Shown: positions 1 to 14,332 of the stretch, in pieces | Layout of the letters: the number at the start of each line of letters is the position of its first letter | Numbering within the stretch: the stretch's first letter is position 1 | Source: an uncultured delta proteobacterium | Lineage (GTDB): Bacteria; RBG-13-61-14; DRUE01 | NCBI GenBank assembly: GCA_903930515.1 | Contig: CAIYYW010000035.1 | Location: forward strand, 1 to 18,202 | Length of the DNA stretch: 18,202 bases | Direction: 5' to 3' | Program-made: the position numbers and the translations under genes | Notes under the pieces: generated by a model | Seen by the model: the letters and a program-made list of their open reading frames with translations, nothing else | What the model was told of the DNA's origin: nothing | Database searches by the model: none

Positions 1-1502
1 ACCGGCCCCCCGGCCTGCGGTTCCAATTCTCCGATCCAGCGGTCAATCTTTTCGCCCGCCTCTCCCAGAACCAGCACGGTTTTGGGAATGGGAATGATGT
101 CCTCGGAAATTCTGCCCAAGTTTCCTAGGCTTCCCTCCGGCGCCATAATTTTTCCGCCCGCCTCCACGAAATCCGCAAGAATTTTTTCCTGGTCCGGAGA
201 GAGTTTCCCGACCGGGAACGGGACCACCAGGATTTTAAAATTATTGAGCGGAGTTCCTTGCTCCAGCCGAGCCAGGACCTTGGTCTGGAACATCACATTG
301 TTCTTGATCAATGCATCGGCAAAGGGATTGGTTTCGGTCCCGGACAAAAGCGCGATCCTCGCCACCGGGATGACCTGATGATAAAGCTCGCGATGGTCCT
401 TGATGAATTTATGGTATTGCGCGATCGCGGCCCAGGCGAGAAGCGCCTGGGGATCGTCCCGGATCAGTCCGTCCAGGAACCGGCCTTCAATGTTTCGGGA
501 AAGCGCGGCGCCGAAGGCATAAGCCTCGGCAATGCTCAGCTTCTGCTCAGATGGAGCGGGGATGCAGGTTTCGCGCGGGCCGCAATGATCTTTGTCATGC
601 TCAAATTTGAGCGGCTGCCAATCCTGCTTGGCGCCATTGAGGAATTTCAATTTGCGGACATTACCGAGATACCAGCCGTTCTCCCAGATCCCGGGAGTGT
701 TCTTGCCGCCTTCGTCCCAGATCGCGTCGCAGTGGTCATTGATCTCAAACCGGGTCGGGTCGGCATGGGTATTGGCGTAAACCAAAGCCTTGGGCCTTCC
801 GGTTTTTTCCGATTCCGCCTCGGCCAGCAACTGGGTCTCGCTGATCAAAAGTTTCACCGCCTGATTGTCCCCGAAGATGTTGTCATAAAATATTCCGTCC
901 GCGCCCGCTTCAATCGCGAGTTGCGCCTTTTTCAAAAGATAGCCCCGCCATTCCGGCTTGCTCGGATCCGCCAAAATCCGGTGCGGGGACCCGCCGTAAT
1001 GCATCGGCAAGCCCGCGACCCGGTAAACCAATCCCCTGGTCTCCGGGTCGTCCCGGAACGCGCTCCACCAGAACATATTGGTCGCGGAAAGATATGCGGT
1101 GACCTTGATCCCCTCCTGGTGACAACGGCCGATCACTTTTTTCAAATCCTCCCGATTATCAGACTCCCGCTCCCAAGACCAGCCGTTGCTCCAGGTCACC
1201 CAGATCCAGTTGAACTCCGCCTGCTTCAACAACCCCAGCATCTTCTCAAAATCCCGGTCGTAAATATGCGCGAGCGTGTCCTGCTCCTGGTCCGTGAAAT
1301 TCATCCCCCACCAGGTCCGAGCCGCCTTCGCGCTTTCAATCCCCCCGCCGTCCAGACGGAGGAACCGGAAATTACCCTGCTCCGCCCATTCCGGCAGGGT
1401 CTCGCTGCTTGTCCGGTATAGCGGCTGATCCCCGGCCGCGCTTGCGGAGAAGAGCAGCGCAAAAACAATCAACCAGGCCGCTCCGGTAAAATTCCGATTC
1501 AT
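1..1502 (-). CDS. Secreted glycoside hydrolase-like protein, 3' end beyond window
   Basis: About 500 codons are open from the ATG at 1502 to the left edge with no stop, so the C-terminus is missing. The first 24 residues look like a signal peptide: a short basic start (MNRNF), a hydrophobic stretch (WLIVFALLF) and a small-residue cleavage region (SASAAG). The next roughly 330 residues read like a TIM-barrel glycosidase, rich in Trp and with strand-end acidic motifs such as GADGIFYDN and AIWDEGG. A second region near residues 395-470 (VARIALLSG, ILVVPFPVG, FVEAGGKIMA) resembles the Rossmann-like beta-galactosidase trimerisation domain that follows the barrel in GH42-like enzymes. The catalytic acids cannot be assigned. 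The likely role is exported carbohydrate breakdown. The gene has its own promoter and lies downstream of, and separate from, the nuo-like operon. The family call is inferred from fold-like motifs; the reading frame itself is certain. Confidence 0.8.
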   Translation of the reverse strand, partial: MNRNFTGAAWLIVFALLFSASAAGDQPLYRTSSETLPEWAEQGNFRFLRLDGGGIESAKAARTWWGMNFTDQEQDTLAHIYDRDFEKMLGLLKQAEFNWIWVTWSNGWSWERESDNREDLKKVIGRCHQEGIKVTAYLSATNMFWWSAFRDDPETRGLVYRVAGLPMHYGGSPHRILADPSKPEWRGYLLKKAQLAIEAGADGIFYDNIFGDNQAVKLLISETQLLAEAESEKTGRPKALVYANTHADPTRFEINDHCDAIWDEGGKNTPGIWENGWYLGNVRKLKFLNGAKQDWQPLKFEHDKDHCGPRETCIPAPSEQKLSIAEAYAFGAALSRNIEGRFLDGLIRDDPQALLAWAAIAQYHKFIKDHRELYHQVIPVARIALLSGTETNPFADALIKNNVMFQTKVLARLEQGTPLNNFKILVVPFPVGKLSPDQEKILADFVEAGGKIMAPEGSLGNLGRISEDIIPIPKTVLVLGEAGEKIDRWIGELEPQAGGP

Positions 1503-1512
1503 CTGCCCTCAG

Positions 1513-1542
1513 ATTATAAGCGATCATAATAATCCAAGTCAA
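1513..1542 (-). promoter_or_regulatory. Sigma70-type promoter of the glycoside hydrolase-like gene
   Basis: On the minus strand, TTGACT (1537-1542) is separated by 18 nt from a perfect TATAAT (1513-1518). The -10 ends only 10 nt before the ATG at 1502. A start site 7 nt after the -10 would give a leader of about 4 nt. The GAGGG just before the ATG would then lie largely outside the transcript. This is a prediction from consensus match only. Confidence 0.6.
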
Positions 1543-1627
1543 TGACCCGGGTTCCTGTTTCACCGCCGAACCAATCCCGGGAGGGGGCGAAAGAATCCTG
1601 TCTGCATAAAATAGCCGGTGAAATATC

Positions 1628-4600
1628 CTAGGCCTGGCCCCAATGGGGTCGCTTGAACCAACCCAACTGGATCAGCCGCTTCTGCAGATAGCCGTCCAGG
1701 CTGGCGTAAAAATAAGGGAGCGGGATCCCGGCTTGGGCCTCGATCTTGACCGGCTGCAAATGGATCGGTCCGGGGAAATTTTCCAGCGCGGGCCAGACCT
1801 TTCTGTTTTGGCGGGCTTGTTCCAATTGTTCCGGGGGAATTCCGAGCAGGCCGGAAAGTTCCTTGCGTATTTCCGCGGGGTCCGAGGGCATCTGGTGTCC
1901 GAGTTCGGCGGCAAGCAGGCAGAGGACTTCGGAACTGGTCTTGCCGGAAGCGGGATGGTCGGCGCGGTTCACGGCTTTGGCGATTCGGTCAAGGCTGATG
2001 ATAGTGCCGTCGGTCTCGGCCAGGGTGGACGCGGGAAGAACCACCTGGGCCTGCCGGGCGGTCCCGGTCAGGAAATGATCAATCACCACCAGGGCCTCCA
2101 GGCCGCCGAGCGCCTGGTCCGCTTGCGGGTCGCAGAACGGGTCTTCCAGCATCACCAACGCGCTTTTGATCTTGCCGGAAGCGAGCGCCTGGGATAAACC
2201 TCCTTGATCTTTCCCGGGCAAATGGTTGTCAAGGATCCCGGCGAGCCGGGCGCCCTCGGAATTGCAATCGGGCCGGAGCAGGAGCAGTCCGTTTCCGTTC
2301 CCGGATAGATGCCCGGTCAGGATCAGAATCTGGGCCAGCATTTTCAGATCCTCCGGGGATTGTTCAATGGTGTCATCCAAATCATAAATGGCAACCATCT
2401 TTTCCGCGCCCGCGATCAGGCCCGCGAGTTCTTCCAATTTTTTGCCGTCAACCCCCGCGGTCTTCGCTGCTTGATCCGGAGAAACTTTCGTGAGCGATTT
2501 TTTCAGAGACTCAAAATCCTCTTTGCCCTCTGATTCCTGCGGCTGGGCCGCTCCTTTTTCAATCAGTCCGGCCAGGACCCCGGCGAGCAAAATTCCGGCG
2601 GTTCCGCGCCTGGGATTCAGCCACAGTTTGGCCGAATGCGCCAGATCCATATTGCTGGAATTGATGATCACAACCCTGGCGCCTTTCCTCGCCGCGCGCC
2701 TGATCCTGATCGCCAATACCGGATGGGTGGTTGAGGGGTCCGCTCCCAAAACCAGGATCAGGTCCGCGGAATTAAGCTCGCTTTGGGAGCAGGTGGAAAT
2801 GGTTGCCCCGATCATTTTATCCAGGTCATTCCGCGGTCCGCCTTTGCGGAACTGGCTGAAGCTCCCGATCAGGCTGGTTCCCAATCCGGAGCGCGCCATC
2901 CTTCCGGCCAGGTATGCTTCTTCCAGGGTCATCCGGGCCGAGGACAGGAACGCGGTTGATCCCGGCCCGTTTTTCTTTTGCGCTTCTTTTAATATCCGGG
3001 CCGCGGTTTTGATCGCCTCGTCCCAGCTCGCTTCCACCAATTCCCCGTTCTTCCGGACTAGGGGCTTGGTAATCCGCTCCCCGCATTGGACCAGGCCGGT
3101 CCCGAACCGGCCGCGGTAGCAGAGGTCTCCTTCTCCGATCCGGGCAGTGGCTCGCGAGCCGGCCCAGAGCAGACCGTCGGTGACCACATTTAAATCCATT
3201 TCGCACCCGACCGAGCAGAAGCCGCACACGGAGTGGATCTTTTTGGTTTTCCAGGGACCTTGCCGGCGGAACGGCAGCTTGGCGCTGAGCGCTCCGGTGG
3301 GACAGGTCTCCACGCAGGCCCCGCAGGAAATGCAGGGGCTTTCCGCAAGCGGCCTGCCCATTGCCGGCTTGACCACCGTGGAGAAGCCGCGGTTCACGAA
3401 CCCGAAAACCGACTGGTCCAGGACCTGGGCGCAGGCGCGCACACATCTTCCGCACAGGATGCACTTGTTGGAATCCAGGACCAACAGGGGGTGGCTGCTG
3501 TCCACCTTGTGCCTGCGCACGGCGCCGGAAAGCCTTAGCTGGTCCGCGTTATATCGGGTGGCGTATTCGCGGAGCCGGCAATCAAACTGGGCCTTGCATC
3601 CGCATTCCATACAGCGCAAGGATTCCTCTTTCATCCCCGGCTCGGCCAGTCCCAACTCTGTTTCTTTAAAATCATTTTTGCGCTCCAAAGGATCCCGCTC
3701 CGGCATTGGTTGCCTTTTGGACCGGGCCACTTCGTCATAAACCTTGTCCGGGATCGGGCCGAACACCTCGCGCTTGCTGACAAATATTTTCTTTTCCTTT
3801 TTCACCTCGCCGGTTTTCAGGTATTGATCAATGGACCGGGCCGCGCATCCGCCGTGGGCAATGGCTTCAATCACCACCGACGGCCCGCTCACCAAATCCC
3901 CCCCGGCAAACACCCCCGGGATATTGGTGGTCATCAAGTCCTCATCCGCCTTGACCGTGTTGCCCCGGCCTAAAGCCGGCCGCGACCCCTCAGACTCTTT
4001 CTTGAGCGGGTCCGGGTCCGTGCCCTGGCCGATGGCCGCGAAGACAAAATCGCAGGAATATTCAAACTCCGAGCCCTTGATCGGAACCGGACTCCTTCGG
4101 CCGGAAGCGTCGGGCGCTCCCAGTTCCATCCGGATGCATTTCAAGGCCTGGAGCCTTCCCTTTTCCGCGATCACTTCCACCGGCGCGGCCAAAATTTCCA
4201 GCTTCACACCCTCTTTTACCGCAGCCTCCACTTCCTCGGGATGCGCCGGCATCTCCTTGCGCGTCCGGCGGTAAAGAATAATCACTTCATCCGCGCCGGA
4301 CCTGAGCGCGGTCCGGGCCGCGTCAATGGCGGAGTTTCCCCCTCCCACCACCACCACTTTGCCGTAAAGCTTGCGCGGTCCTTTGAGCACTGAGTCGCGC
4401 AAGAATTCCAGGGCGGATTCAATCCCTTCCGCGTCCTCGCCCGGGATTTCCATCTTTTTCCCCAGCGGCGCTCCCATTGCCAGGAACACCGCGTCAAACT
4501 TGTCCTGCTCGCGCAGGCTTTGAATGGTGAAATCCTTCCCGAGCTTCTTCCCCAATTCCACTTCCACTCCCAGGCTGAGGATCTCGGCGATCTCCTGGTC

Positions 4601-5368
4601 CAACTCGGACTTGGGGAGACGATATTCGGGAATGCCCCAGCGGAGCATCCCGCCCAATGCCGACATCGCCTCGAAAATTTTCACCGAATGGCCCATCAGT
4701 GAAAGGTAGTAAGCCGCGGTGAGTCCGGCCGGGCCCCCGCCGATGACGGCGACTCTTTTCCCGGTCGGCGCTTTTTTTGGGGGGAGCAGTTTTTCCCGGT
4801 CTGTTTTTTCAGCCACAAAGCGTTTCACATAATTGATCCCGACCGCCTCGTCCACAATATTCCGCCGGCAATTCACCTCGCACCTGCGCACGCACACCCT
4901 TCCGCAAACCACCGGCAAGGGATTGGTTTCCTTGATCAGCCGGAGCGCCTGGTCGTAAAAGCCGAGGTTGGCGAGGGAGAGATATCCCTGAACATCCACT
5001 CCGGCCGGGCAGTTGGTCTGGGCCGGACATAAACAGTCCGCGAAATGGTCGGAGAGGAGCAGGTCCAGCGCGGTCTTGCGCGCGCATTGAATCTTGTCGC
5101 TATTGGTGGTCACCTCCATATTTTCCCGGACCCGGGTGATGCAGGATGGGACCAGGCCGCGGGCGCCCTTGACTTCCACCACGCAAAGGAAACAGGACCC
5201 GAAGGGTTCCAGCTTGGGGTCGTTGCAGAGGTTGGGGATTTGGTCCAGCCCCTGCTCGTGCACGACTTCCAGGACGGTCTGGCCGGGTCTCGCTTTGATG
5301 GCTTGCCCGTTGATCCTAAGTTCAATCAGGTTTGATTTTTTTCCCGGTTCGGTAGAATTCCCTGACAT
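1628..5368 (-). CDS. NfnB/GltD-type flavin domain fused to NuoG/FdhA-like FeS-molybdopterin-fold protein
   Basis: This is a 1246-residue cytosolic redox fusion. The modules in order are as follows. Residues 13-90 are a NuoG-type [2Fe-2S] ferredoxin (C48, C59, C62, C76). Residues 108-120 are a cluster region with H108, C112, C114 and C120. Residues 150-170 are a GltD-type FeS segment (C155, C159, C163, C167). Residues 205-515 are an FAD/NAD(P) oxidoreductase (GGGPAG 210-215, GGGNSA 342-347, FAGGD 487-491). C586, C589, C591 and C597 form a further Cys motif. Two [4Fe-4S] ferredoxin motifs sit at C636-C646 and C679-C689. An FdhA/NuoG-type [4Fe-4S] domain has C715, C718, C722 and C750. A molybdopterin-oxidoreductase fold follows. 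The region where formate dehydrogenases carry Cys/Sec-His reads GSFSQFRKGG (835-844), with neither Cys nor Sec. The C-terminal dinucleotide-binding domain also seems absent, so this is NuoG-like electron wiring more than a formate dehydrogenase. It starts 4 nt after the NuoF-like stop and is probably translationally coupled. By analogy with HydABC, Nfn and Stn complexes it could pass electrons between NADH, NADP(H) and ferredoxin; that is inference. Confidence 0.9.
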   Translation of the reverse strand: MSGNSTEPGKKSNLIELRINGQAIKARPGQTVLEVVHEQGLDQIPNLCNDPKLEPFGSCFLCVVEVKGARGLVPSCITRVRENMEVTTNSDKIQCARKTALDLLLSDHFADCLCPAQTNCPAGVDVQGYLSLANLGFYDQALRLIKETNPLPVVCGRVCVRRCEVNCRRNIVDEAVGINYVKRFVAEKTDREKLLPPKKAPTGKRVAVIGGGPAGLTAAYYLSLMGHSVKIFEAMSALGGMLRWGIPEYRLPKSELDQEIAEILSLGVEVELGKKLGKDFTIQSLREQDKFDAVFLAMGAPLGKKMEIPGEDAEGIESALEFLRDSVLKGPRKLYGKVVVVGGGNSAIDAARTALRSGADEVIILYRRTRKEMPAHPEEVEAAVKEGVKLEILAAPVEVIAEKGRLQALKCIRMELGAPDASGRRSPVPIKGSEFEYSCDFVFAAIGQGTDPDPLKKESEGSRPALGRGNTVKADEDLMTTNIPGVFAGGDLVSGPSVVIEAIAHGGCAARSIDQYLKTGEVKKEKKIFVSKREVFGPIPDKVYDEVARSKRQPMPERDPLERKNDFKETELGLAEPGMKEESLRCMECGCKAQFDCRLREYATRYNADQLRLSGAVRRHKVDSSHPLLVLDSNKCILCGRCVRACAQVLDQSVFGFVNRGFSTVVKPAMGRPLAESPCISCGACVETCPTGALSAKLPFRRQGPWKTKKIHSVCGFCSVGCEMDLNVVTDGLLWAGSRATARIGEGDLCYRGRFGTGLVQCGERITKPLVRKNGELVEASWDEAIKTAARILKEAQKKNGPGSTAFLSSARMTLEEAYLAGRMARSGLGTSLIGSFSQFRKGGPRNDLDKMIGATISTCSQSELNSADLILVLGADPSTTHPVLAIRIRRAARKGARVVIINSSNMDLAHSAKLWLNPRRGTAGILLAGVLAGLIEKGAAQPQESEGKEDFESLKKSLTKVSPDQAAKTAGVDGKKLEELAGLIAGAEKMVAIYDLDDTIEQSPEDLKMLAQILILTGHLSGNGNGLLLLRPDCNSEGARLAGILDNHLPGKDQGGLSQALASGKIKSALVMLEDPFCDPQADQALGGLEALVVIDHFLTGTARQAQVVLPASTLAETDGTIISLDRIAKAVNRADHPASGKTSSEVLCLLAAELGHQMPSDPAEIRKELSGLLGIPPEQLEQARQNRKVWPALENFPGPIHLQPVKIEAQAGIPLPYFYASLDGYLQKRLIQLGWFKRPHWGQA

Positions 5369-5372
5369 TGCC

Positions 5373-7121
5373 TTACCTCTTTTCCACTGCGCCTTGACGG
5401 CACACGGTGATGCACTTGGAGCATTTTATACATTTGCTCGGGTCAATCAGATGCGGTTTTTTCTTTTCGCCGCTGATGGCTCCTGACTCGCAGGCCTTGA
5501 GACAAAGGCCGCATCCGGTGCAAAGCTCGGAATTGATCACATAGTCCACCAACGCCCCGCAGACCTTGGCCGGACATTTCTTGTCCTTGATGTGGGCCTG
5601 GTATTCATCGCGGAAATAGAGGATGGTGGTCAGGACCGGGTTGGGCGCGGTCTGGCCGAGTCCGCAGAGGGAACTGGACTTGATCTGCTCGGCCAATTCG
5701 GCCAAAGTCAGCAAATCTTTTTCCTCGCCCTTGCCCGCGCAAATCCGTTCCAAAATTTCCAGCATCCGCTTGGTGCCGATCCGGCAGAAGGTGCATTTGC
5801 CGCAGGATTCGTTCTGGGTGAAATTGAGAAAGAACCTGGCCACATCCACCATACAGGTATCGGTGTCCATCACCACCATCCCGCCCGAGCCCATAATGGC
5901 TCCGGTGGCGGTGATCTTTTCATAATCCACCGGGGTGTCTCCGAGCGCGGCCGGGATGCATCCCCCGGAGGGCCCTCCCATCTGCACGGCCTTGAAGGGT
6001 TTCCCGGAAATAGTCCCGCCTCCGATGTCGTAGATCACCTCGTTGATGCTGATCCCCATCGGCACTTCCACTAATCCGCCGCGCTTGATCTTTCCGGCCA
6101 AAGCGAACACCTTGGTGCCTTTGGAATTGCCGGTGCCGAAAATATTGAAGGCCTTGGCCCCGTTGATAATGATCCAGGGCACATTGGCCAGGGTTTCCAC
6201 ATTGTTGATGCAGGTGGGATGGCCCCACAGGCCGGAATCCACCGGGAACGGCGGCCGAACCCGGGGCATCCCGCGCCTTCCTTCAATGGAGGCGATCAGC
6301 GCGGTCTCTTCCCCGCACACGAACGCCCCCGCGCCTTCTTTTAAGCGGATGGAGAAATTAAATCCCTTGCCCAGAATATTATTCCCCAAATACCCTTTTT
6401 CCTCGGCCTGCCCGATCGCGTGTCTAAGGCGGCGCACGGCGTGCGGGTATTCGGCCCGGGCATAGATGTATCCGTGGTCCGCTCCGATGGCGGCCCCGGC
6501 AATGGCCATCCCTTCCAGGATGGAATGCGGGTCTCCCTCCAGGACGCTCCGGTCCATAAACGCCCCCGGGTCTCCCTCGTCCGCGTTGCAGACCACATAT
6601 TTATGTTGGTCTTTGGCCGCGGCCGCATACTTCCACTTGGTCCCGGTCGGGAACCCGGCCCCTCCCCTTCCGCGCAGGCCGGACTCGGCGATGATCGCGA
6701 TGATCTGTTCCGGCTTCAATTCGTTCAATACTTTGACCAGGGCCTGGTACCCGCCCACGCCCAAATATTCATCCAAGCTGAACGGGTCTATCTTTCCGCA
6801 GTTCCGAAGCACGATCCGCTTCTGCTTGGCCAGCACTTCATTCTCCTCGCCGACCTTCCATTCCTCAATCACCTTGCCGGCCCGCAGATGCTCTTCCACA
6901 ATCCGGTCCACCCGCTCTTTGGTCACATCCCCGTAAAGGGTCCTTTTGCCCTGTTCCCGGACCTCCACCAGCACCTCACGATAGCACATCCCCACGCAGC
7001 CGGTCTGCTTGAGCACGGCCTGGTCTTTTTGCGGGTCAATCAATTCCTTCAGCCGGTCGTAAACAGGGATGCCTCCCGCGGCGATCCCGCAGGCGCCCAG
7101 CCCGACCACTACTTCTCTCAT
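5373..7121 (-). CDS. NuoF/HydB-like NADH-binding flavoprotein with C-terminal 2[4Fe-4S] domain
   Basis: This 582-residue protein is the NADH- and FMN-binding subunit of a soluble, complex-I-related module. Residues 1-85 are a thioredoxin-like [2Fe-2S] domain. The FMN/NADH site includes GLRGRGGAGFPTGTKW (148-163) and ESCGKCTFCRIGT. The N3-type [4Fe-4S] ligands are C440, C443, C446 and C486. The C-terminus adds paired [4Fe-4S] motifs (C534, C537, C540, C544 and C564, C567, C570, C574), preceded by C516 and C521. The N-terminal thioredoxin-like and C-terminal ferredoxin additions are typical of HydB/HndC-like and electron-bifurcating members, not of plain complex I NuoF. The N-terminal domain shows only C11, C42 and C46, one Cys short of the usual four ligands. 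The start at 7121 is chosen because AGGAGG lies 5 nt before it. An in-frame ATG at 7160 has no better site and would place that AGGAGG inside the gene. The gene lies 40 nt after the NuoE-like gene and 4 nt before the fusion gene. Confidence 0.93.
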   Translation of the reverse strand: MREVVVGLGACGIAAGGIPVYDRLKELIDPQKDQAVLKQTGCVGMCYREVLVEVREQGKRTLYGDVTKERVDRIVEEHLRAGKVIEEWKVGEENEVLAKQKRIVLRNCGKIDPFSLDEYLGVGGYQALVKVLNELKPEQIIAIIAESGLRGRGGAGFPTGTKWKYAAAAKDQHKYVVCNADEGDPGAFMDRSVLEGDPHSILEGMAIAGAAIGADHGYIYARAEYPHAVRRLRHAIGQAEEKGYLGNNILGKGFNFSIRLKEGAGAFVCGEETALIASIEGRRGMPRVRPPFPVDSGLWGHPTCINNVETLANVPWIIINGAKAFNIFGTGNSKGTKVFALAGKIKRGGLVEVPMGISINEVIYDIGGGTISGKPFKAVQMGGPSGGCIPAALGDTPVDYEKITATGAIMGSGGMVVMDTDTCMVDVARFFLNFTQNESCGKCTFCRIGTKRMLEILERICAGKGEEKDLLTLAELAEQIKSSSLCGLGQTAPNPVLTTILYFRDEYQAHIKDKKCPAKVCGALVDYVINSELCTGCGLCLKACESGAISGEKKKPHLIDPSKCIKCSKCITVCRQGAVEKR

Positions 7122-7126
7122 CTCAA

Positions 7127-7132
7127 CCTCCT
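7127..7132 (-). promoter_or_regulatory. Shine-Dalgarno site fixing the NuoF-like start
   Basis: The minus strand reads AGGAGG with a 5-nt spacer to the ATG at 7121. It decides between this start and the in-frame ATG at 7160. Confidence 0.75.
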
Positions 7133-7161
7133 CGTAACGATGCCGAAAAAATGAAGACAAC

Positions 7162-7668
7162 TCAGGCGGCTTGCTCTTTCTTTCTGCGATATTGCTTGAT
7201 GATCTTCCGGACCTTTTCCGGGGTCAACCTCCCGTAAGCCTGGTCCCCGATCATAACCACCGGCGCCAGGCTGCAACAGCCCAGACACGCCACCACCATA
7301 TAGGTGAACAGACCGTCCTTGGTGGTCTCGTCCGGATATATCCCCAACTCGTCCTCAACCGTCTGCGCGATCAGCTCCGCGCCCGAAACATGACAGGCGG
7401 TTCCCTTGCAGGTCCGGAGCACATATTTCCCCAGGGGCAGAAGCCGGAACTGCTTGTAAAAGGTGATCACGCCGAAGACCTCGCTCGCGGGAATCGCGGT
7501 CACTTCCGCAATCTGCTCAATCGCCAGAGACGGGATATAACCGTAAGCGTCCTGGGCGGCCTGGAGCAGAGGGATCAGCATCCCCGGCTCTCCGTGATGC
7601 CTCCAGAGCATCTTGCTGAATGGCGATAAAACGGTTCCTTCCGATGTTCTTGCAGTTGCCTCGGTCAT
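7162..7668 (-). CDS. NuoE-like [2Fe-2S] subunit of NADH-dependent oxidoreductase
   Basis: This 168-residue protein matches the usual size of NuoE/HydC/HndA subunits. It has an N-terminal helical region (PLLQAAQDAYGYIP, near residues 33-46) and a thioredoxin-fold domain with the classic [2Fe-2S] ligands C87 and C92 (CKGTAC) and C128 and C132 (CLGCC). In the family it relays electrons to or from the FMN site of the NuoF-type partner, which is the next gene. AGGAG lies 6 nt before the ATG at 7668. It is the first enzyme gene of the operon and follows the regulator gene after an 87-nt gap that holds a large hairpin. No membrane complex I subunit is nearby, so a soluble complex is likely. Confidence 0.94.
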   Translation of the reverse strand: MTEATARTSEGTVLSPFSKMLWRHHGEPGMLIPLLQAAQDAYGYIPSLAIEQIAEVTAIPASEVFGVITFYKQFRLLPLGKYVLRTCKGTACHVSGAELIAQTVEDELGIYPDETTKDGLFTYMVVACLGCCSLAPVVMIGDQAYGRLTPEKVRKIIKQYRRKKEQAA

Positions 7669-7692
7669 CTTTCACTCCTCTTTCTCTTTCGT

Positions 7693-7753
7693 GGCGCAGA
7701 CCCTCTTGCTTGCCCTGGGAAGCTCCGAAGGAGCGAAGCAGGGTCTCTGCGCC
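7693..7753. repeat. Large imperfect palindrome between regulator and NuoE-like gene
   Basis: GGCGCAGA at 7693-7700 pairs with TCTGCGCC at 7746-7753. After a 2-nt bulge, CCCT (7701-7704) pairs with AGGG (7740-7743). Inside are a GCTT/AAGC pairing and a perfect GCTCC-GAA-GGAGC hairpin (7722-7734). There is no T-run after the stem on the minus strand, so it is not a classic terminator. It could be an mRNA-stabilising or processing structure, or an interspersed palindromic repeat. Confidence 0.65.
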
Positions 7754-7755
7754 TT

Positions 7756-8742
7756 TTACATCTTCATCAATTCCATTATGTCCAGCATTTTCATCCGGAC
7801 CACGCCCGGCTGAGTGCGGACTTGGCTGGACCAAGTCCTGCGGATTTGTTCAAAGTCCCGTCCTTGCAGGAGCAAAATGATTTGGCTGCCGTTGTCCGTG
7901 GCGTCGCAATTTACCACGGTATCGGTGAGAGACAGTTTGGCGAACAAGGGAGCCAGTTGCGACCGGTCCACTTCCAGGACCGCGTAGGCGCTCACCTGTT
8001 TCCGGTCCCGCTTATCAGTCCCGGTCTCTCCCGAATGTTTCAACGCGTAAGCGCTGATAAAAGATTCCAACTCCGCGGCCAGGGGGGCCCGCTCGGAATA
8101 ATGGACTTCAATCTCCGCGATCCCGGGTATGGAATTCACCTGCTGTTTCACCAACTCTTCCACGGCCTTGCGATCCTCGGCCTGGACCAAGAGCACAAGG
8201 TCCCAGTCCCCCCGCACCGCGTCGCAATAGATCACCTTTTTATTGGAATAAAGTTGAACGAAAATTTTTTCCAGATCCGCGTCGCTCTTGCCCCGAATGA
8301 ATATATACGCGCCAGCCGGATGCCTGACCGAAGGCTCGGACTGGGATTGGGGTTCCGCGATCCCGGGACCCAGCCGCTTCAATTCCGCTTCCAACTCTTC
8401 CAGCTTGAACGGCTTGTCCAAATAACCGTTGCGCAAATCCTTTTTGACCGCATCCCTGGTATCCTCGTCCCCATACCCGGTGATCGCCACCACCGCCAAA
8501 TCGGGATATTTGCTCCGGATCAGTTCCAGAACTTTCAGGCCGGCGATGTCCGGAAGGCGCAAATCCAGGATCACATAGTTATACGGGATGCCTTTGATCC
8601 GGGCCGACTCAATCTTTTTCAACGCGGTCAGACCGTCCTCGCAATCCTCAACCGCGTACCCCCGTTCGCTCAACCCGCGCGAAAGTTGCTTCCGAACCGA
8701 CGCCTCATCATCTACTACCAGCGCCCTGGCTGTCGTCTTCAT
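7756..8742 (-). CDS. Response regulator: receiver domain plus two Lrp/AsnC-type (RAM) ligand-binding domains
   Basis: This protein has 328 residues. Residues 5-125 form a complete CheY-like receiver: acidic pair D11-D12, phosphoacceptor D60 (VILDLRLPD), T88 (AITGYG) and K110 (YLDKPF). Residues 145-215 look like an AsnC/Lrp RAM domain: AYIFIRGKSDADLEKIF, then a GDWDLVLLVQAED core and a VNSIPGIAEIEV end. Residues 252-325 look like a second, more diverged copy (SAYAVLEVDRSQLAPLFAKL, then QIILLLQGRDFEQI and QPGVVRMKM). No helix-turn-helix or enzymatic output domain is visible, so output is probably through protein contacts or ligand sensing. The start at 8742 is preceded by GGGAGG with a 7-nt spacer; a longer in-frame start at 8874 would run through the promoter. 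It is the first gene of the operon with the three redox genes. A regulatory link to them is inferred, and no kinase is nearby. Confidence 0.85.
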   Translation of the reverse strand: MKTTARALVVDDEASVRKQLSRGLSERGYAVEDCEDGLTALKKIESARIKGIPYNYVILDLRLPDIAGLKVLELIRSKYPDLAVVAITGYGDEDTRDAVKKDLRNGYLDKPFKLEELEAELKRLGPGIAEPQSQSEPSVRHPAGAYIFIRGKSDADLEKIFVQLYSNKKVIYCDAVRGDWDLVLLVQAEDRKAVEELVKQQVNSIPGIAEIEVHYSERAPLAAELESFISAYALKHSGETGTDKRDRKQVSAYAVLEVDRSQLAPLFAKLSLTDTVVNCDATDNGSQIILLLQGRDFEQIRRTWSSQVRTQPGVVRMKMLDIMELMKM

Positions 8743-8749
8743 TTCTCTG

Positions 8750-8755
8750 CCTCCC
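8750..8755 (-). promoter_or_regulatory. Shine-Dalgarno site fixing the regulator start
   Basis: The minus strand reads GGGAGG, 7 nt before the ATG at 8742. It rejects the longer in-frame start at 8874. Confidence 0.75.
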
Positions 8756-8761
8756 ACCATA

Positions 8762-8789
8762 ATTCTACCGATCAGTATATTTTTTTCAA
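8762..8789 (-). promoter_or_regulatory. Promoter of the regulator-redox operon
   Basis: On the minus strand, TTGAAA (8784-8789), a 16-nt spacer and TAGAAT (8762-8767) match the sigma70 consensus at 5 of 6 bases in each hexamer. The predicted start is near 8755, leaving a leader of about 13 nt that still contains the GGGAGG site. An overlapping TATACT just upstream is an alternative -10. Confidence 0.55.
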
Positions 8790-8813
8790 CTTTTCTCGTT
8801 TTACCGGTCTTTT

Positions 8814-8838
8814 CCCCTTTTTCACCCCGCCCCCGCCC
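8814..8838 (-). other. G-quadruplex motif in the divergent promoter region
   Basis: The minus strand carries four G-runs of 3, 5, 4 and 4 with loops of 1, 1 and 7 nt. They lie about 25 nt upstream of the regulator -35 hexamer. The motif is directly visible; folding and function are inferred. Confidence 0.5.
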
Positions 8839-8853
8839 GTTGCCGAAGGCAAC
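8839..8853. repeat. Short perfect palindrome between divergent genes
   Basis: GTTGCC-GAA-GGCAAC has 6-bp arms and a 3-nt centre. It sits about midway between the two divergent promoters, so it could be an operator for either, or a small extragenic hairpin next to the G-rich tract. There is no direct evidence for protein binding. Confidence 0.4.
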
Positions 8854-8897
8854 TGCGCGCAATGTCCGGTTCAAGCAGGAGCGGCGAGAAATTTAAA

Positions 8898-8927
8898 TTG
8901 GCGGAAAGGGGATAATTTTGTTAGAAT
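8898..8927 (+). promoter_or_regulatory. Promoter of the amidase operon
   Basis: TTGGCG (8898-8903), an 18-nt spacer and TAGAAT (8922-8927). The -10 ends 12 nt before the ATG at 8940, so the leader would be about 5 nt. No Shine-Dalgarno sequence is visible in that leader. Confidence 0.5.
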
Positions 8928-8939
8928 AAAGATAAGCGG

Positions 8940-10823
8940 ATGCGGAAGCGGATATATCTGATTTTGGGGATGGGAATCGCGCTAAGCTTGGGCGCGGCCA
9001 ATGTCTGTTTGCAATCCTATCAGGCCGCGGACCAGGCTTACCAGGCTTTTGTCAAGGACCGTTCAAAAACCAAATACCATCAGAACTGGGAAAAGATGGC
9101 GGAGAAGTTCGCGCGGATCGGGATGACCTATCCGGATTGCGAAAAGGCGGATGACGCCTGGCTCAAGGCCGGGAAGGTCTGGCTGGACTGCTATCAGATT
9201 TCGAGGAGCCGTTCTGATCAGGATCAGGCCCTGGCCGCGTTGGCGGAACTGCTCAAGCGCTATCCGAAATCCAATTTGGCGGACGACGCTCTTTACTATC
9301 GGGCGGAAATTTATTTATCCCTGGGAGAGAGGGATTCGGGACAGGCGGAGCTGGGAAAAATCCTGGCCGGATATCCCGCCGGGGATCGCGCCGCGGAGGC
9401 GAAGAAGCGGCTGTCCGGGATGGGGGTGAAAAGCGGTCCCGCGGGGAACGGCTCGGAGCGGGTTTTTTCTTCGCAGTCAACCCAAGCCCAATCCGCGGCT
9501 CCGGGCAAGGCCCCGCTCCGGAACAATGACGCGATCGCGCTGATGCTGGATAAGTCGGATACGTCCGAATTGTCCGGCGCGGTTTCAACTCCGCTCTCGG
9601 AGCTGCTCCGGATCCGGTATTGGTCGGCGCCCAGCTATACCCGGGTGGTGATGGACCTGAGCCGGAAGGCCGGCGTTTCCGATCCGAAATTGCTTCCGGC
9701 TGATCCCGGCCGCGGGGTTGGGCCCCGGATTTATTTTGACCTGTTGCAGACCCGGCTCAGCCCTGAATTCCGGAATCAATTTCAATACCAGGACAATTGC
9801 TATGAACTTATGATCGGAGACGGCCTGCTCCGGAGGGCGCGCGCCGGTCAGAACCTGCCGGAGGTGGTCAGGATCGTTTTGGACCTTCAGTCCATCAGCG
9901 ATTTTCAATTGCGGTCCCTTCCGGGAGAGAACGGCACCTGGCGGATCGTGGTGGATATTTTCGGGGAAAGGAAACCGGATGAAGAGATCGCGCCGGCGCC
10001 TGCTCCCAATCCTCAGCCGGGGCAGACCCCCGCGCCTTCTCCGACACCGGTTCCGACTCCGAATCCTTTGCCCATGCCTCTTCCCAAGCCGGTCGCGAAG
10101 GCTTTTCCACCGGTGATCGTTATTGACGCGGGTCATGGGGGCAAGGACCCGGGGGCGCTCGGCAAGAGGAATCAGGAAAAAATCATCGCGCTGAACATTG
10201 CCAAATACCTGGAGCAGGAGTTGAAGAAGAAATATCCGGAGGCCAAGGTGGTTTTAACCCGGAGGGATGACCGGTTTTTGGAATTGGAGGAGCGGACGGC
10301 CAAGGCCAATGCCCTGGAGGCGGACCTGGCCAATGACCAGCAAGGGATTTTCATCTCAATTCATGTGAACGCCACCCGGGACGGGTCCGCTTACGGGATT
10401 GAGACTTATTACCTGGACAATACCACGGACCGGGCCAGCCTGAAGTTGGCGGCTCGGGAGAATTTCGTGAGCGAGGAAGTGATGGAACAGATGGGGTCGG
10501 ATGTGAACAAGATCCTGGCCGACCTGACCACCAACAGCAAGGTCAGCCAGTCGGTCCCGCTCGCGCGCAGCGTTCAGGAAAACCTGGTGGACGAATTGGC
10601 CGGGACTTATTCCAGCGTTAAAAACCTGGGCGTGAAAAAAGCGCCGTTCTGGGTTCTGACCGGGGCCAGGATGCCTTGCGTTCTGGTGGAGGTCGGGTTC
10701 ATCTCCAATCAGACCGAGGAAAAACGACTGGCTTCAACCGGGTACCAGAAGGCCATTGCCAAGGGGATCGCGGACGGCGTTAATGACTGGCTGAAAAATC
10801 CCCAGGCGCTTCTGATCCCGTAG
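8940..10823 (+). CDS. Exported N-acetylmuramoyl-L-alanine amidase with TPR and AMIN domains
   Basis: This 627-residue protein cleaves the MurNAc-L-alanine bond of peptidoglycan, by family. Residues 1-20 are a signal peptide or anchor (MRKRIYLILGMGIALSLGAA). Residues 25-165 contain TPR-like repeats (LKRYPKSNLADDALYYRAEI). Residues 220-345 form an AMIN domain, which in the AmiC family targets peptidoglycan or the septum. A proline-rich linker spans about 350-382. Residues 390-622 are the zinc Amidase_3 domain, with DAGHGG (H399), E413, H475 in SIHVNA and catalytic E584 in LVEVGFISN, so all key residues are present. The layout resembles amidases known from Desulfobacterota and Nitrospirota. There is no Shine-Dalgarno sequence at this ATG, and the promoter is almost adjacent. 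It is followed 8 nt later by a nucleotidyltransferase gene, suggesting a cell-wall operon. Confidence 0.94.
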   Translation: MRKRIYLILGMGIALSLGAANVCLQSYQAADQAYQAFVKDRSKTKYHQNWEKMAEKFARIGMTYPDCEKADDAWLKAGKVWLDCYQISRSRSDQDQALAALAELLKRYPKSNLADDALYYRAEIYLSLGERDSGQAELGKILAGYPAGDRAAEAKKRLSGMGVKSGPAGNGSERVFSSQSTQAQSAAPGKAPLRNNDAIALMLDKSDTSELSGAVSTPLSELLRIRYWSAPSYTRVVMDLSRKAGVSDPKLLPADPGRGVGPRIYFDLLQTRLSPEFRNQFQYQDNCYELMIGDGLLRRARAGQNLPEVVRIVLDLQSISDFQLRSLPGENGTWRIVVDIFGERKPDEEIAPAPAPNPQPGQTPAPSPTPVPTPNPLPMPLPKPVAKAFPPVIVIDAGHGGKDPGALGKRNQEKIIALNIAKYLEQELKKKYPEAKVVLTRRDDRFLELEERTAKANALEADLANDQQGIFISIHVNATRDGSAYGIETYYLDNTTDRASLKLAARENFVSEEVMEQMGSDVNKILADLTTNSKVSQSVPLARSVQENLVDELAGTYSSVKNLGVKKAPFWVLTGARMPCVLVEVGFISNQTEEKRLASTGYQKAIAKGIADGVNDWLKNPQALLIP

Positions 10824-10831
10824 AGGGGGCG

Positions 10832-11572
10832 ATGATGGAACCGGAAATTCGGGCGATGATCCTGGCCGCTGGTTTTGGAACCCGGATGAAAATCGGCGGA
10901 GAGCAAATCCCCAAGCCGCTGGTGAGGGTTTGCGGGCGGCCTTTGATCCATTACCCGCTCCGGCTCCTGGCCGGGGCCGGGTTCAAGGAAGCGGTGATCA
11001 ATCTCCATCACCGCGGGGAAGAGATCAGAGCGGAACTCGGCGGGAGCGCGTTCGGGGTCAAGGTTCATTATCTGGATGAGCCGGAAATCCTCGGCACCGG
11101 GGGCGGAGTCAAGAACGCGAACCGCATTTTCCCGGCCCGGAACTGGCTCACGCTTAACTCCGACACCATCATTGACCTGGACCTGAAACAACTCATTGCT
11201 TTTCACCGGAAGCATACCCCGATCGCCACCATGGTCCTTTCCCAATCCCGGCTGGGAAAGTTCAATGCCGTGTTCGCGGACTTTGAGGGAAGGGTCAGGA
11301 AGATCGGGGGAAGGCCGGAAGACGCGGATTCGGGATCGGGGCTTTCCGCTTATAATTTCTGCGGGGCGCAACTGATCCGGAGCGACTTGCTGGACTGCCT
11401 GCCGGACGGACACAGCAAAATCATTGAGCAGGCATACCTCAAGGTCCTGGAAAAGGAAACGGTGCTCGGTTACATTTTCAGCGGCCTCTGGATCCCGATT
11501 GACACGCCCGGGGCAAAAAGCCAGGCGGAAAAAGAAATGATCGCCGGCGATCCGGAATTCCTGAAATTTTGA
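10832..11572 (+). CDS. Sugar-phosphate nucleotidyltransferase (MurU/RmlA-like)
   Basis: This 246-residue protein of the NTP_transferase family couples a sugar-1-phosphate to a nucleoside triphosphate to give an NDP-sugar. The nucleotide-binding signature is at residues 11-19 (LAAGFGTRM), followed by PKP at 27-29. The metal-binding Asp is D111 (LNSDTIID), the sugar-side loop is ILGTGGGVKNAN (86-97), and the C-terminal IPIDTP is typical of the group. There is no left-handed beta-helix acyltransferase domain, so it is not GlmU. The size and the amidase neighbour fit MurU, which makes UDP-MurNAc during cell-wall recycling, but the sugar specificity cannot be read from sequence. AGAGGGGG precedes two tandem ATGs (10832 and 10835); either may be used. 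It converges with the rhomboid gene, with 18 nt between the two stops. Confidence 0.88.
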   Translation: MMEPEIRAMILAAGFGTRMKIGGEQIPKPLVRVCGRPLIHYPLRLLAGAGFKEAVINLHHRGEEIRAELGGSAFGVKVHYLDEPEILGTGGGVKNANRIFPARNWLTLNSDTIIDLDLKQLIAFHRKHTPIATMVLSQSRLGKFNAVFADFEGRVRKIGGRPEDADSGSGLSAYNFCGAQLIRSDLLDCLPDGHSKIIEQAYLKVLEKETVLGYIFSGLWIPIDTPGAKSQAEKEMIAGDPEFLKF

Positions 11573-12322: not shown

Positions 12323-14332
12323 TCAGATCTGGTTCCCGGAAAAAAATCCTTCCTGAACCGCGTCCATAATTTTCCTCGGCCCTTTGGCGTCTCCGATCTC
12401 GATAAACTTGGTCCCGTTTTTCTCCAGCTCCGCCGCCAGGTCGCGGTTTGCTTTGGAACCGAGCGCGAGCACCACCGAATCCGCCGGCTCGCTCCTGCTT
12501 GCCCCGTCAATTTCATAGATCACTTCCCCGGGCTTGATCTTGAGCACTTTCGCGCGGGTGATGGTTTTTATTCCGAAGCGGGAAAGGTCCTGTAGCAAAA
12601 CCCATTTGGTGGCCACCCCCAAATCCGGCCCGACCTTTTCCAGCATTTCAATGATCACGACCTGGCGGGAGCCTTTGGTGCAAATCTCGTAAAGTTTTTC
12701 AATCCGCTCGGCCTGGTTGAGAAAAAGGAATTTCAGGGTCTCCCCTGAGACGGTGCCCTGGTTCGCGATGAAAAGAGCGGTCTCGATCCCGGTGGAACCC
12801 CCGCCGATCACAACCACCTTCTCCCCCAAAGCGCCGCAGCCACTCTGGTCTGCTTTTAATATTTCCCAGGCCTGATGCACAAATTCAAGGTTTACTCCCG
12901 GAATTTTCGGCTGGATCGGTTTGGCGCCGGTGGCTAGAATAATCTGATCAAAGCCGGCCTTGGCGATCTTGTTCACGGTCGCCTTTTTGTTGAGCCTCAC
13001 CTTGACCTTGACCCGTTCCAATTCCTTTTCGTAAAAACGGGACAGCCTCGCGAAATCCCCTCTCCCCGGAGGGGCTGCGGCAAGGTCCAACTGGCCCCCG
13101 ACCCGGTCCGAGGCTTCCCATAACTCCACCTGGTATCCCCTCAATTTCGCGGTGATCGCGGCCTCCGACCCGGCCGGTCCTCCGCCAACCACCAACACTT
13201 TTTTCTTGCCTTCCATCGGATTGAGCTTCCGCTCCCCCTCATACCCGGACACCGGGTTGGCCAGACATTCCACCGGCTTGCCCGAGAACAGTTTGTCCAA
13301 ACACCCCTGCATACATCCCACGCAGGGACGGATCTCGGGATCGCGTCCTTCCCTTGCCTTGTTCGCCCATTCCGGGTCCGCGATCTGGGCCCTCCCGATG
13401 CAGACCGCGTCCGCCCATCCCTCCTGCAAAATTCTCTCCGCCTGAGCCGGATCGAAAATCCGGTTGCTGCTGAAGACCGGAACCTTTACCTTGCGCTTGA
13501 TCCCGAGCGCGAGATAAGTATAAGCGCCGGCCGGAACCTCCATCGGCAGCTGCGGAACCTTGGTCTCGTGCCATCCGCCCGTGACATTGATCGCGTCAAT
13601 CCCCCGCTCCACAAACAGCCGAGCATACTCGCTCATCTCCTCGTTGGTGTTCCCGCCTGGAATAAAGTCGTTCCCGCCGATCCGCATCGCAACCGGAAAA
13701 TCAGGGCCGACCTTTTCCCGGACCCGGTTAATAATATTGAAGACAAAGGTGGCGCGCTTTTCAAAACTCCCTCCGTATTCATCGGTGCGCAAATTGGTCA
13801 CCGGAGACAGGAATTGGTTGATCAAATAGCCGGCATTGCCGATCAGCTCAACCCCGTCCACGCCCGCCTGCTTCGCGCGCAAGGCCGCCTCCGCGAACTG
13901 TTTCTCGGTTTCAATGATCTCGTCCCGCGAAAGTTCCCGGGGCTCTTCCTTGGTGTACCTGCTCCGGACCACGCTCGGCGCCACGGACTTCTGGCCGATC
14001 AGGAAGGAGAACTGATAACGGCCGGAGTGGAACAATTGCAGGAACAGACGGGCGTTGTGCTTGTGAACGGCTTCGGCCAGCTTCTCATAGCCCGGGATAA
14101 AACTGTCATCATCCAACCCCAGCATCATCGGCCCTCCCCCGATGAAATTCACCCCGCATCCGCCCACAATGATCAGCCCGCATCCGCCTTTTGCGCGCGC
14201 CTCATAAAAGTCCAGCAGCTTTTGGCTCACCTTCCGGTCCTGGGTGTAAAGCAGCCCGAACGCCGGCATCACCACCCGGTTCCGTATTTCCAATCCCTTG
14301 ATCTTCATCGGCCGGAACAACTGCCTATCCAT
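12323..14332 (-). CDS. NADH:flavin oxidoreductase, 2-enoate / 2,4-dienoyl-CoA reductase family
   Basis: This 669-residue protein has the full FadH/BaiCD/enoate reductase layout. Residues 1-330 are an FMN-binding TIM barrel of the old yellow enzyme type (MPAFGLLYTQDRKVS, LQLFHSGRYQ, NQFLSPVTNLRTDEYGGS). Residues 337-356 carry the [4Fe-4S] ligands C337, C340, C344 and C356 (CVGCMQGCLDKL). Residues 378-669 form an FAD and NAD(P)H module with GGGPAG at 383-388 and a second GGGSTG near residue 510. Members reduce activated C=C bonds, in fatty, bile or aromatic acids or their CoA esters, using NAD(P)H. The GYL segment reads GNAGYLINQF, where FadH-like enzymes often have GSEGYLIN, so the substrate may differ. 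GGGAGG precedes the ATG at 14332 by 8 nt. It is probably cotranscribed with the rhomboid gene. Confidence 0.92.
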   Translation of the reverse strand: MDRQLFRPMKIKGLEIRNRVVMPAFGLLYTQDRKVSQKLLDFYEARAKGGCGLIIVGGCGVNFIGGGPMMLGLDDDSFIPGYEKLAEAVHKHNARLFLQLFHSGRYQFSFLIGQKSVAPSVVRSRYTKEEPRELSRDEIIETEKQFAEAALRAKQAGVDGVELIGNAGYLINQFLSPVTNLRTDEYGGSFEKRATFVFNIINRVREKVGPDFPVAMRIGGNDFIPGGNTNEEMSEYARLFVERGIDAINVTGGWHETKVPQLPMEVPAGAYTYLALGIKRKVKVPVFSSNRIFDPAQAERILQEGWADAVCIGRAQIADPEWANKAREGRDPEIRPCVGCMQGCLDKLFSGKPVECLANPVSGYEGERKLNPMEGKKKVLVVGGGPAGSEAAITAKLRGYQVELWEASDRVGGQLDLAAAPPGRGDFARLSRFYEKELERVKVKVRLNKKATVNKIAKAGFDQIILATGAKPIQPKIPGVNLEFVHQAWEILKADQSGCGALGEKVVVIGGGSTGIETALFIANQGTVSGETLKFLFLNQAERIEKLYEICTKGSRQVVIIEMLEKVGPDLGVATKWVLLQDLSRFGIKTITRAKVLKIKPGEVIYEIDGASRSEPADSVVLALGSKANRDLAAELEKNGTKFIEIGDAKGPRKIMDAVQEGFFSGNQI

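Follow-up and report, generated by a model that had tools for sequence, protein, structure and literature searches.

The closest described systems are three solved complexes, StnABC of Sporomusa ovata (PDB title of 8oh5), Nfn-ABC of Caldicellulosiruptor saccharolyticus (9bov) and NfnABC of Thermococcus sibiricus (9n5u). In S. ovata, StnC is a fusion of a GltD domain to a NuoG-like domain, 1172 aa in length (PMC10482914, PMC7483475), in which the FdhF part is catalytically dead; the FAD only hands electrons on and bifurcation occurs at the FMN module of StnAB (PMC10482914). Schut et al. (2022) placed the same enzyme type as Nfn-Bfu in the Bfu family and linked true bifurcation to the presence of clusters B1-B5, in which B2 is pentacoordinate with His/Cys ligands (PMC9304861). 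Stn and Nfn have been reported to be nearly mutually exclusive (PMC7483475).

Gene order and identity of the operon

In the window (the whole stretch of 18,202 nucleotides that was analysed, from an uncultured delta proteobacterium) open reading frame calls gave four tandem genes on the minus strand, in the order REC-RAM-RAM, NuoE, NuoF and a long fusion (Table 1). The REC-RAM-RAM and NuoE genes are separated by 87 bp, NuoE and NuoF by between one base and 40 bp depending on the choice of start codon, and NuoF and the fusion by 4 bp. Homology of the NuoF-like protein begins at the ATG at 7121, which is the likely start. The Pfam scores (NuoE 3e-49, Nuo51 1.5e-49, NADH_4Fe-4S 3e-34, Molybdopterin 7e-36, Pyr_redox_2 1.6e-29) are so strong that the gene assignments are not due to chance. 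On the fusion, Pfam and NCBIfam identified Fer2_4, Fer4_20 and Pyr_redox_2 (GltD), NuoG-type Fe-S domains and a molybdopterin-oxidoreductase-like end, with Fer2_4 at residues 14-90, GltD at about 112-520, the NuoG Fe-S region at 586-694 and the FdhF-like domain at 709-1160.

Table 1. Features of the locus, in positions of the window
Feature	Position	Strand	Basis
Promoter-like site before the REC-RAM-RAM gene	8762..8789	-	Consensus scan only, 10/12 matches
REC-RAM-RAM companion gene	7756..8742	-	328 aa; start ATG at 8742
Companion REC	8380-8721	-	Pfam Response_reg 2e-22
Companion RAM1	about 8092-8337	-	Pfam AsnC_trans_reg 3e-15
Companion RAM2-like repeat	about 7759-7995	-	
StnA / BfuC (NuoE-like)	7162..7668	-	Best PDB matches 9n5u_C, 8oh5_A, 9bov_C
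StnB / BfuB (NuoF-like); N-terminal Trx-like and C-terminal 2[4Fe-4S] domains	5373..7160	-	Best PDB matches 9bov_B, 8oh5_B, 9n5u_B; tree; ligand alignment
StnC / BfuA fusion	1628..5368	-	1246 aa; PDB 9bov_A 2e-244, 8oh5_C 2e-221, 9n5u_A 1e-191
StnC N-terminal [2Fe-2S] domain (C48, C59, C62, C76)	5048..5329	-	Fer2_4 3e-18; ligand columns invariant
StnC shifted cluster-ligand motif C112-x-C114-x5-C120-P (others C-x3-C-x3-CP)	5009..5035	-	Alignment
StnC GltD/NfnB-like FAD-NADP(H) module	3809..5035	-	GGGPAG at 210, GGGNSA at 342, K182, R250
StnC post-GltD cysteine motif CxxCxCx5C and 2[4Fe-4S] domain (C586-C689)	3287..3613	-	Every ligand column kept
StnC FdhF-like domain, [4Fe-4S] motif C715, C718, C722, C750	1889..3244	-	Molybdopterin 7e-36

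All four genes of the sequence-only reading (a regulator, NuoE, NuoF with a C-terminal 2[4Fe-4S] domain and an NfnB/GltD-NuoG fusion) were confirmed by the reading frames, Pfam and NCBIfam, and, as it had stated, no hydrogenase, membrane or quinone gene was found in the operon. The fusion was correctly recognised but its order was not, since the NuoG-like chain is interrupted by GltD behind its N-terminal [2Fe-2S] domain. The same set of NuoE, HydB-type NuoF and GltD/NuoG fusion with no further catalytic subunit was also found in genomes G001 and G002.

When all PDB sequences were searched, the top matches of all three subunits were the 9bov, 8oh5 and 9n5u complexes. The fusion aligned with 9bov_A over residues 14-1160 and with S. 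ovata StnC over 15-1161, with identities of 44% and 41%, respectively, calculated over the only stretch with available letters. In a tree of 22 NuoF-like proteins the NuoF of the window grouped with StnB of S. ovata, 9bov_B and 9n5u_B (support 99/98), and the HydB proteins, a formate dehydrogenase-linked NuoF-GltD fusion from the genome that carries the window and complex I NuoF all fell outside this clade; a wider NuoF tree of 38 rows agreed. Given this placement in the StnB clade and not with complex I or formate dehydrogenase, the proposal that the operon encodes a bifurcating enzyme was not refuted, and the soluble complex coupling NADH, NADPH and ferredoxin that had been suggested, belonging to the HydBC-type bifurcating family, gained support. 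What had been described as an added NuoG-like relay is no addition: S. ovata StnC already has this part and the window protein matches it over residues 15-1161, so that the relay is a defining part of Stn and its normal design.

We therefore consider it highly probable (roughly 0.92) that the three enzyme genes specify an electron-bifurcating transhydrogenase of the StnABC (Nfn-Bfu / NfnABC) type, preceded by a REC-RAM-RAM companion gene. This identity is based on homology, clade, ligand conservation and gene linkage, from which the reaction, its direction and its regulation can only be deduced. The StnABC design found here is not new and the enzyme is an ordinary one of a known kind, which is also common: a strong match to the fusion was present in 51 of the 386 sampled genomes. 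The range of Stn is extended to a phylum represented by just three genomes in the set searched, all three of which carry the stn operon.

The upstream receiver-RAM-RAM gene

The companion consists of a receiver (REC) with the phospho-acceptor motif VILDLRLPD, a RAM domain (the ligand-binding domain of Lrp/AsnC) and a second RAM-like repeat. Comparison of repeat 2 with RAM 1 gave a local score of 75, against a mean of 24.4 (sd 4.4) for shuffled sequences, and none of 1000 shuffles reached the observed score. No DNA-binding domain was recognised in members of the companion family by a Pfam scan.

Further copies were found upstream of other Stn loci with a profile of five companion genes, and a 10-row RAM-RAM alignment was searched in 386 genomes. 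Ten full-length tandem-RAM matches were obtained (E 1.5e-63 or better), and these correspond one for one to the profile's ten rows. Each lies directly upstream of stnA, in the same orientation and at a distance of about 15-195 bp. The remaining eight matches were weak and partial (E 5e-11 or worse, less than half of the profile); no further full-length copy away from stn was found in the 386 genomes by this search, which was not blind to the known ten. Nine of the ten have the REC-RAM-RAM architecture and one (in G298) has RAM-RAM only. The ten genomes span eight families and, given that the window's phylum has only three genomes, the companion must occur in at least two phyla; the conclusion from 60 genomes that REC-RAM-RAM is confined to the phylum was rejected because of these copies in the larger sample.

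In the StnB tree the companion-bearing loci fell within one 14-row clade (92/92), the rest of which consists of three closely related loci without a companion and one locus whose contig ends too early to show whether the gene is there. This points to a single gain of the companion as the most likely history, after which it remained next to stn as its sequence diverged. A single clade could also result if an unrelated response regulator merely adjoined the operon, one old insertion having been carried along, and the companion is missing at 13 or more other Stn loci. We regard such chance adjacency as unlikely, given that the linkage to stnA was kept at ten out of ten full-length copies despite an identity to the window copy of 17-27% outside the phylum, and that one copy retains just the two RAM repeats.

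The companion is thus conserved across one branch of the Stn family. Tentatively, and with less than even confidence, we suggest that this (receiver-)RAM-RAM protein, which has no recognised DNA-binding domain, could be a fourth component dedicated to Stn and work directly on the enzyme, through allosteric control or in StnC assembly. If this were true, the balance of NADH, NADPH and ferredoxin would be under the control of a phosphorelay and a small ligand. The strict linkage of companion and stnA across diverged loci makes the companion a concrete candidate for control of a bifurcating transhydrogenase. Of eight companions that were scanned, five gave weak NapD matches (E 0.0008-0.03), none of which reached the Pfam cut-off. 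RAM and NapD share a ferredoxin-like fold, and a chaperone role suggested by these matches is only an idea. To our knowledge, no dedicated regulator of a bifurcating transhydrogenase has been described. Nothing was found in a literature search for the companion, which might still be described in other literature, and no regulator is mentioned for S. ovata Stn by Kremp 2020.

Cofactor ligands and the proposed electron path

Comparison with the published sets (PMC9304861) showed that every ligand residue of the Bfu core is present, both for B1-B5 of BfuB, with the His/Cys-ligated B2 among them, and for C1 of BfuC. In StnB the B2 set is complete, with C436, C474, H523, C529 and C534 corresponding to C438, C476, H525, C531 and C536 of NiFe-Bfu; position 474 is Cys in the window and Thr in S. 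ovata. The B1, B3 and B4 ligands and the cysteines of the N-terminal Trx domain are also retained, as are all eight C-terminal ferredoxin cysteines. The loop EGDPGAF is of the bifurcator type and not of the complex I type, with E195 as the equivalent of E184 and D197 as that of S. ovata D186. StnA has C87, C92, C128, C131 and C132.

For StnC, the window protein was aligned with the three solved enzymes and six relatives, and all Fe-S ligand columns were kept except one. The NADP motif GxGxxA is kept, and K182 and R250 correspond to S. ovata K170 and R239, of which K170 touches the FAD-proximal cluster (C7) and is reported to be strictly conserved; the K182 column was invariant in alignment A1. 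The exception lies in the C6/C7 region, where the equivalent of S. ovata C104 is A116 and a new cysteine is found at 114, so that the cysteine has moved two residues (116 to 114). The resulting motif H-x3-C-x-C-x5-CP is shared by the window and both other genomes of the phylum, whereas the canonical spacing H-x3-C-x3-C-x3-CP was seen in all 28 other relatives inspected and in 3/3 solved enzymes. The equivalent of S. ovata C114 is V126, and the Thermococcus enzyme likewise has V. From the ligand pattern of GltD/Nfn enzymes the C104-equivalent cysteine would serve the cluster second from the FAD, and we infer that C114 takes over as the moved ligand; if it does not, an Fe-S cluster close to the FAD may be changed or absent. 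The shifted cysteine is not described in the Stn papers cited here. An AlphaFold model of StnC 1-1190 based on six sequences had a mean pLDDT of 61.5 and a pTM of 0.39 and was poor in the Fe-S regions; the top four Foldseek hits with this model were the same three Stn/NfnABC enzymes, at TM-scores of about 0.3 with no good overall superposition.

The same modules could build a non-bifurcating enzyme, either an NADPH-NADH transhydrogenase or an NADPH-dependent sulfur or metal reductase. Relatives were first named so, NsoABC of Thermococcus litoralis and SfrAB of Geobacter (PMC7483475), and the shifted StnC cysteine could alter electron flow. We nevertheless find this very improbable, given that all of the B2-B4 ligands absent in non-bifurcating homologues are found here and that a Thermococcus enzyme of the Stn type was shown to bifurcate (PMC9304861); in addition, the cysteines of the StnA [2Fe-2S] cluster are kept, and deletion of that cluster in S. 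ovata abolished coupling (PMC10482914). Still less credible is a formate dehydrogenase made of NuoEF and an NADP-linked FdhA, even though the C-terminal half of the fusion scores to Fdh-alpha (280 bits) and the catalytic Sec position is an in-frame TGA in relatives G026 and G311. The window fusion lacks the catalytic Cys/Sec and the CARLCH motif, reading GSFSQF where the FdhA of its own genome reads DHCARLCH, and the dinucleotide-binding domain PF01568 is not listed by Pfam for StnC; that separate, intact FdhA has both, and S. ovata Stn did not show formate activity (PMC7483475). By its sequence, the FdhF-like end of StnC is predicted to be catalytically dead and structural. A complex I NADH module (excluded by the C-terminal 2[4Fe-4S] of NuoF and its position outside the complex I clade), HydABC (the H-cluster domain PF02906 is absent from the operon) and NfnAB (the operon has no gene for NfnA, FNR-like and NAD-binding) were rejected; the genome's only PF02906 match lies on another contig, in a kinase fusion.

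For the preferred reading as StnABC, the catalytic layout would by homology be that of the solved Stn/NfnABC enzymes. NADP(H) would bind at the FAD in the GltD module of StnC, and single electrons would pass along the StnC Fe-S chain to the StnB FMN, the expected binding site of NAD(H). This FMN and the nearby StnA and StnB clusters would split or merge electrons between NAD(H) and ferredoxin, with the C-terminal 2[4Fe-4S] domain of StnB as the putative docking site for ferredoxin and the [2Fe-2S] domain of StnA as a moving gate, as was proposed for S. ovata (PMC10482914). Given that Stn bifurcation sits at the StnAB FMN, the NfnB-like flavin is unlikely to bifurcate. Speculatively, the companion may couple phosphorylation and a small ligand to the activity of the enzyme or its assembly.

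The net direction in the host is likely from NADH and reduced ferredoxin to NADPH, which would be used for biosynthesis. The genome is about 93% complete, and absences from it are therefore soft. No RnfC was found above the cut-off, so that Rnf was undetected, and acetyl-CoA synthase was not detected either; there were one FTHFS and five POR gamma-type matches. This gene content makes an acetogen less likely than an anaerobe with a biosynthetic demand for NADPH. The genome encodes one complex I-type NuoF and three of the HydB type, including that of stn, and no separate NfnB was found, which fits the report that Stn and Nfn seldom occur together (PMC7483475).

Comparison with known systems

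StnABC of S. ovata (8oh5; Kremp 2020, Kumar 2023) resembles the window enzyme in its subunit set, StnC domain order, StnB ligands, K170/R239 and dead FdhF-like end, at identities of 41% for the aligned part of StnC and 63% for StnB. The window differs in having V in place of C114, in the displacement of C104 by two residues upstream and in the REC-RAM-RAM gene before stnA; none is mentioned for S. ovata, where the stn genes are flanked by metVF and pabAB. Nfn-ABC of C. saccharolyticus is the best match to NuoF and the fusion (64% and 44% identity, respectively) and its BfuA of 1178 aa has the same design, but its motif is the canonical C-x3-C-x3-CP. NfnABC of T. sibiricus (9n5u; Schut 2022) is the best match to NuoE, belongs to the StnB clade and also has V at the C114 position; its BfuA is shorter (963 aa) and lacks one [4Fe-4S] cluster that is present in the window protein.

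The more distant systems share single parts. The HydABC [FeFe] hydrogenase has the BfuBC core (NuoE, and NuoF with Trx and 2[4Fe-4S] domains), whereas the window operon has no H-cluster domain and in the trees its NuoF does not group with the HydB rows. NfnAB (NfnSL) has the GltD/NfnB-like FAD-NADP(H) module; in contrast, the window has no NfnA, it has Lys rather than Glu near the FAD-proximal cluster, and its bifurcation is expected at the FMN-FeS core and not at the FAD.

Redox loci other than the window's stn operon

The genome from which the window derives also carries, on contig C243, a locus (L009) whose 1027-aa product is a HydB-type NuoF in which a complete GltD/NfnB module stands where the C-terminal 2[4Fe-4S] domain would be; the FdhA encoded by its third gene is intact and of the Cys form. 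The same NuoF-GltD fusion was present in G002 (L045), G003, G040 and G059, and in the tree of 22 NuoF-like proteins these fusions formed a separate clade (support 97/100). The system may be a formate dehydrogenase linked to both NAD(H) and NADP(H), possibly a bifurcating one, and this arrangement was not found in the Bfu paper (Schut et al. 2022, PMC9304861).

At L051 the NuoF clustered with PDB chain 9mqx_B (support 98/96), the NuoG-like protein is short and the 528-aa protein contains a glutamate-synthase domain (Glu_synthase 1.5e-14). It is possible that this Bfu core is coupled to a flavoenzyme resembling glutamate synthase.

Coordinates of the loci discussed
Locus	Source	Positions	Strand	Content
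L009	own genome, C243	2189-8523		NuoE, 1027-aa NuoF-GltD fusion, 895-aa FdhA
L051	own genome, C245	2027-6729		NuoE, HydB-type NuoF, 220-aa NuoG-like protein, 528-aa protein
L041	G026	150-4391		StnC-like GltD-NuoG-FDH fusion, in-frame TGA
L091	G173	1686-5867		as L041
L092	G311	6796-11091		as L041
L063	own genome, C55	5573-7507		ferredoxin, [FeFe]-hydrogenase-like, FeS, HisKA and HATPase_c fusion
L105	G369	3016-4575		separate GltD/NfnB-like gene
	window	12323-14332	minus	Old Yellow Enzyme and pyridine-nucleotide-disulphide oxidoreductase protein

StnC-like fusions with an in-frame TGA

When the sequences were read, the TGA in the G026 and G311 fusions coincided exactly with the selenocysteine position of formate dehydrogenases (DHCARL-TGA-HSP). 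Neither NuoE nor NuoF was seen near any of the three fusions. These fusions appear to be selenoprotein formate dehydrogenases linked to NADP, and they suggest an origin for the dead FdhF-like end of StnC.

Other genes

The only PF02906 match in the own genome was the L063 fusion, which is followed by a response-regulator gene and is a hydrogenase-like kinase of the sensory rather than the catalytic kind. In G369, the REC-RAM-RAM gene and stnABC are immediately preceded by the separate GltD/NfnB-like gene. The Old Yellow Enzyme-type protein of the window, while scoring below the curated cut-offs of both, resembles BaiCD and long-form bilirubin reductase.
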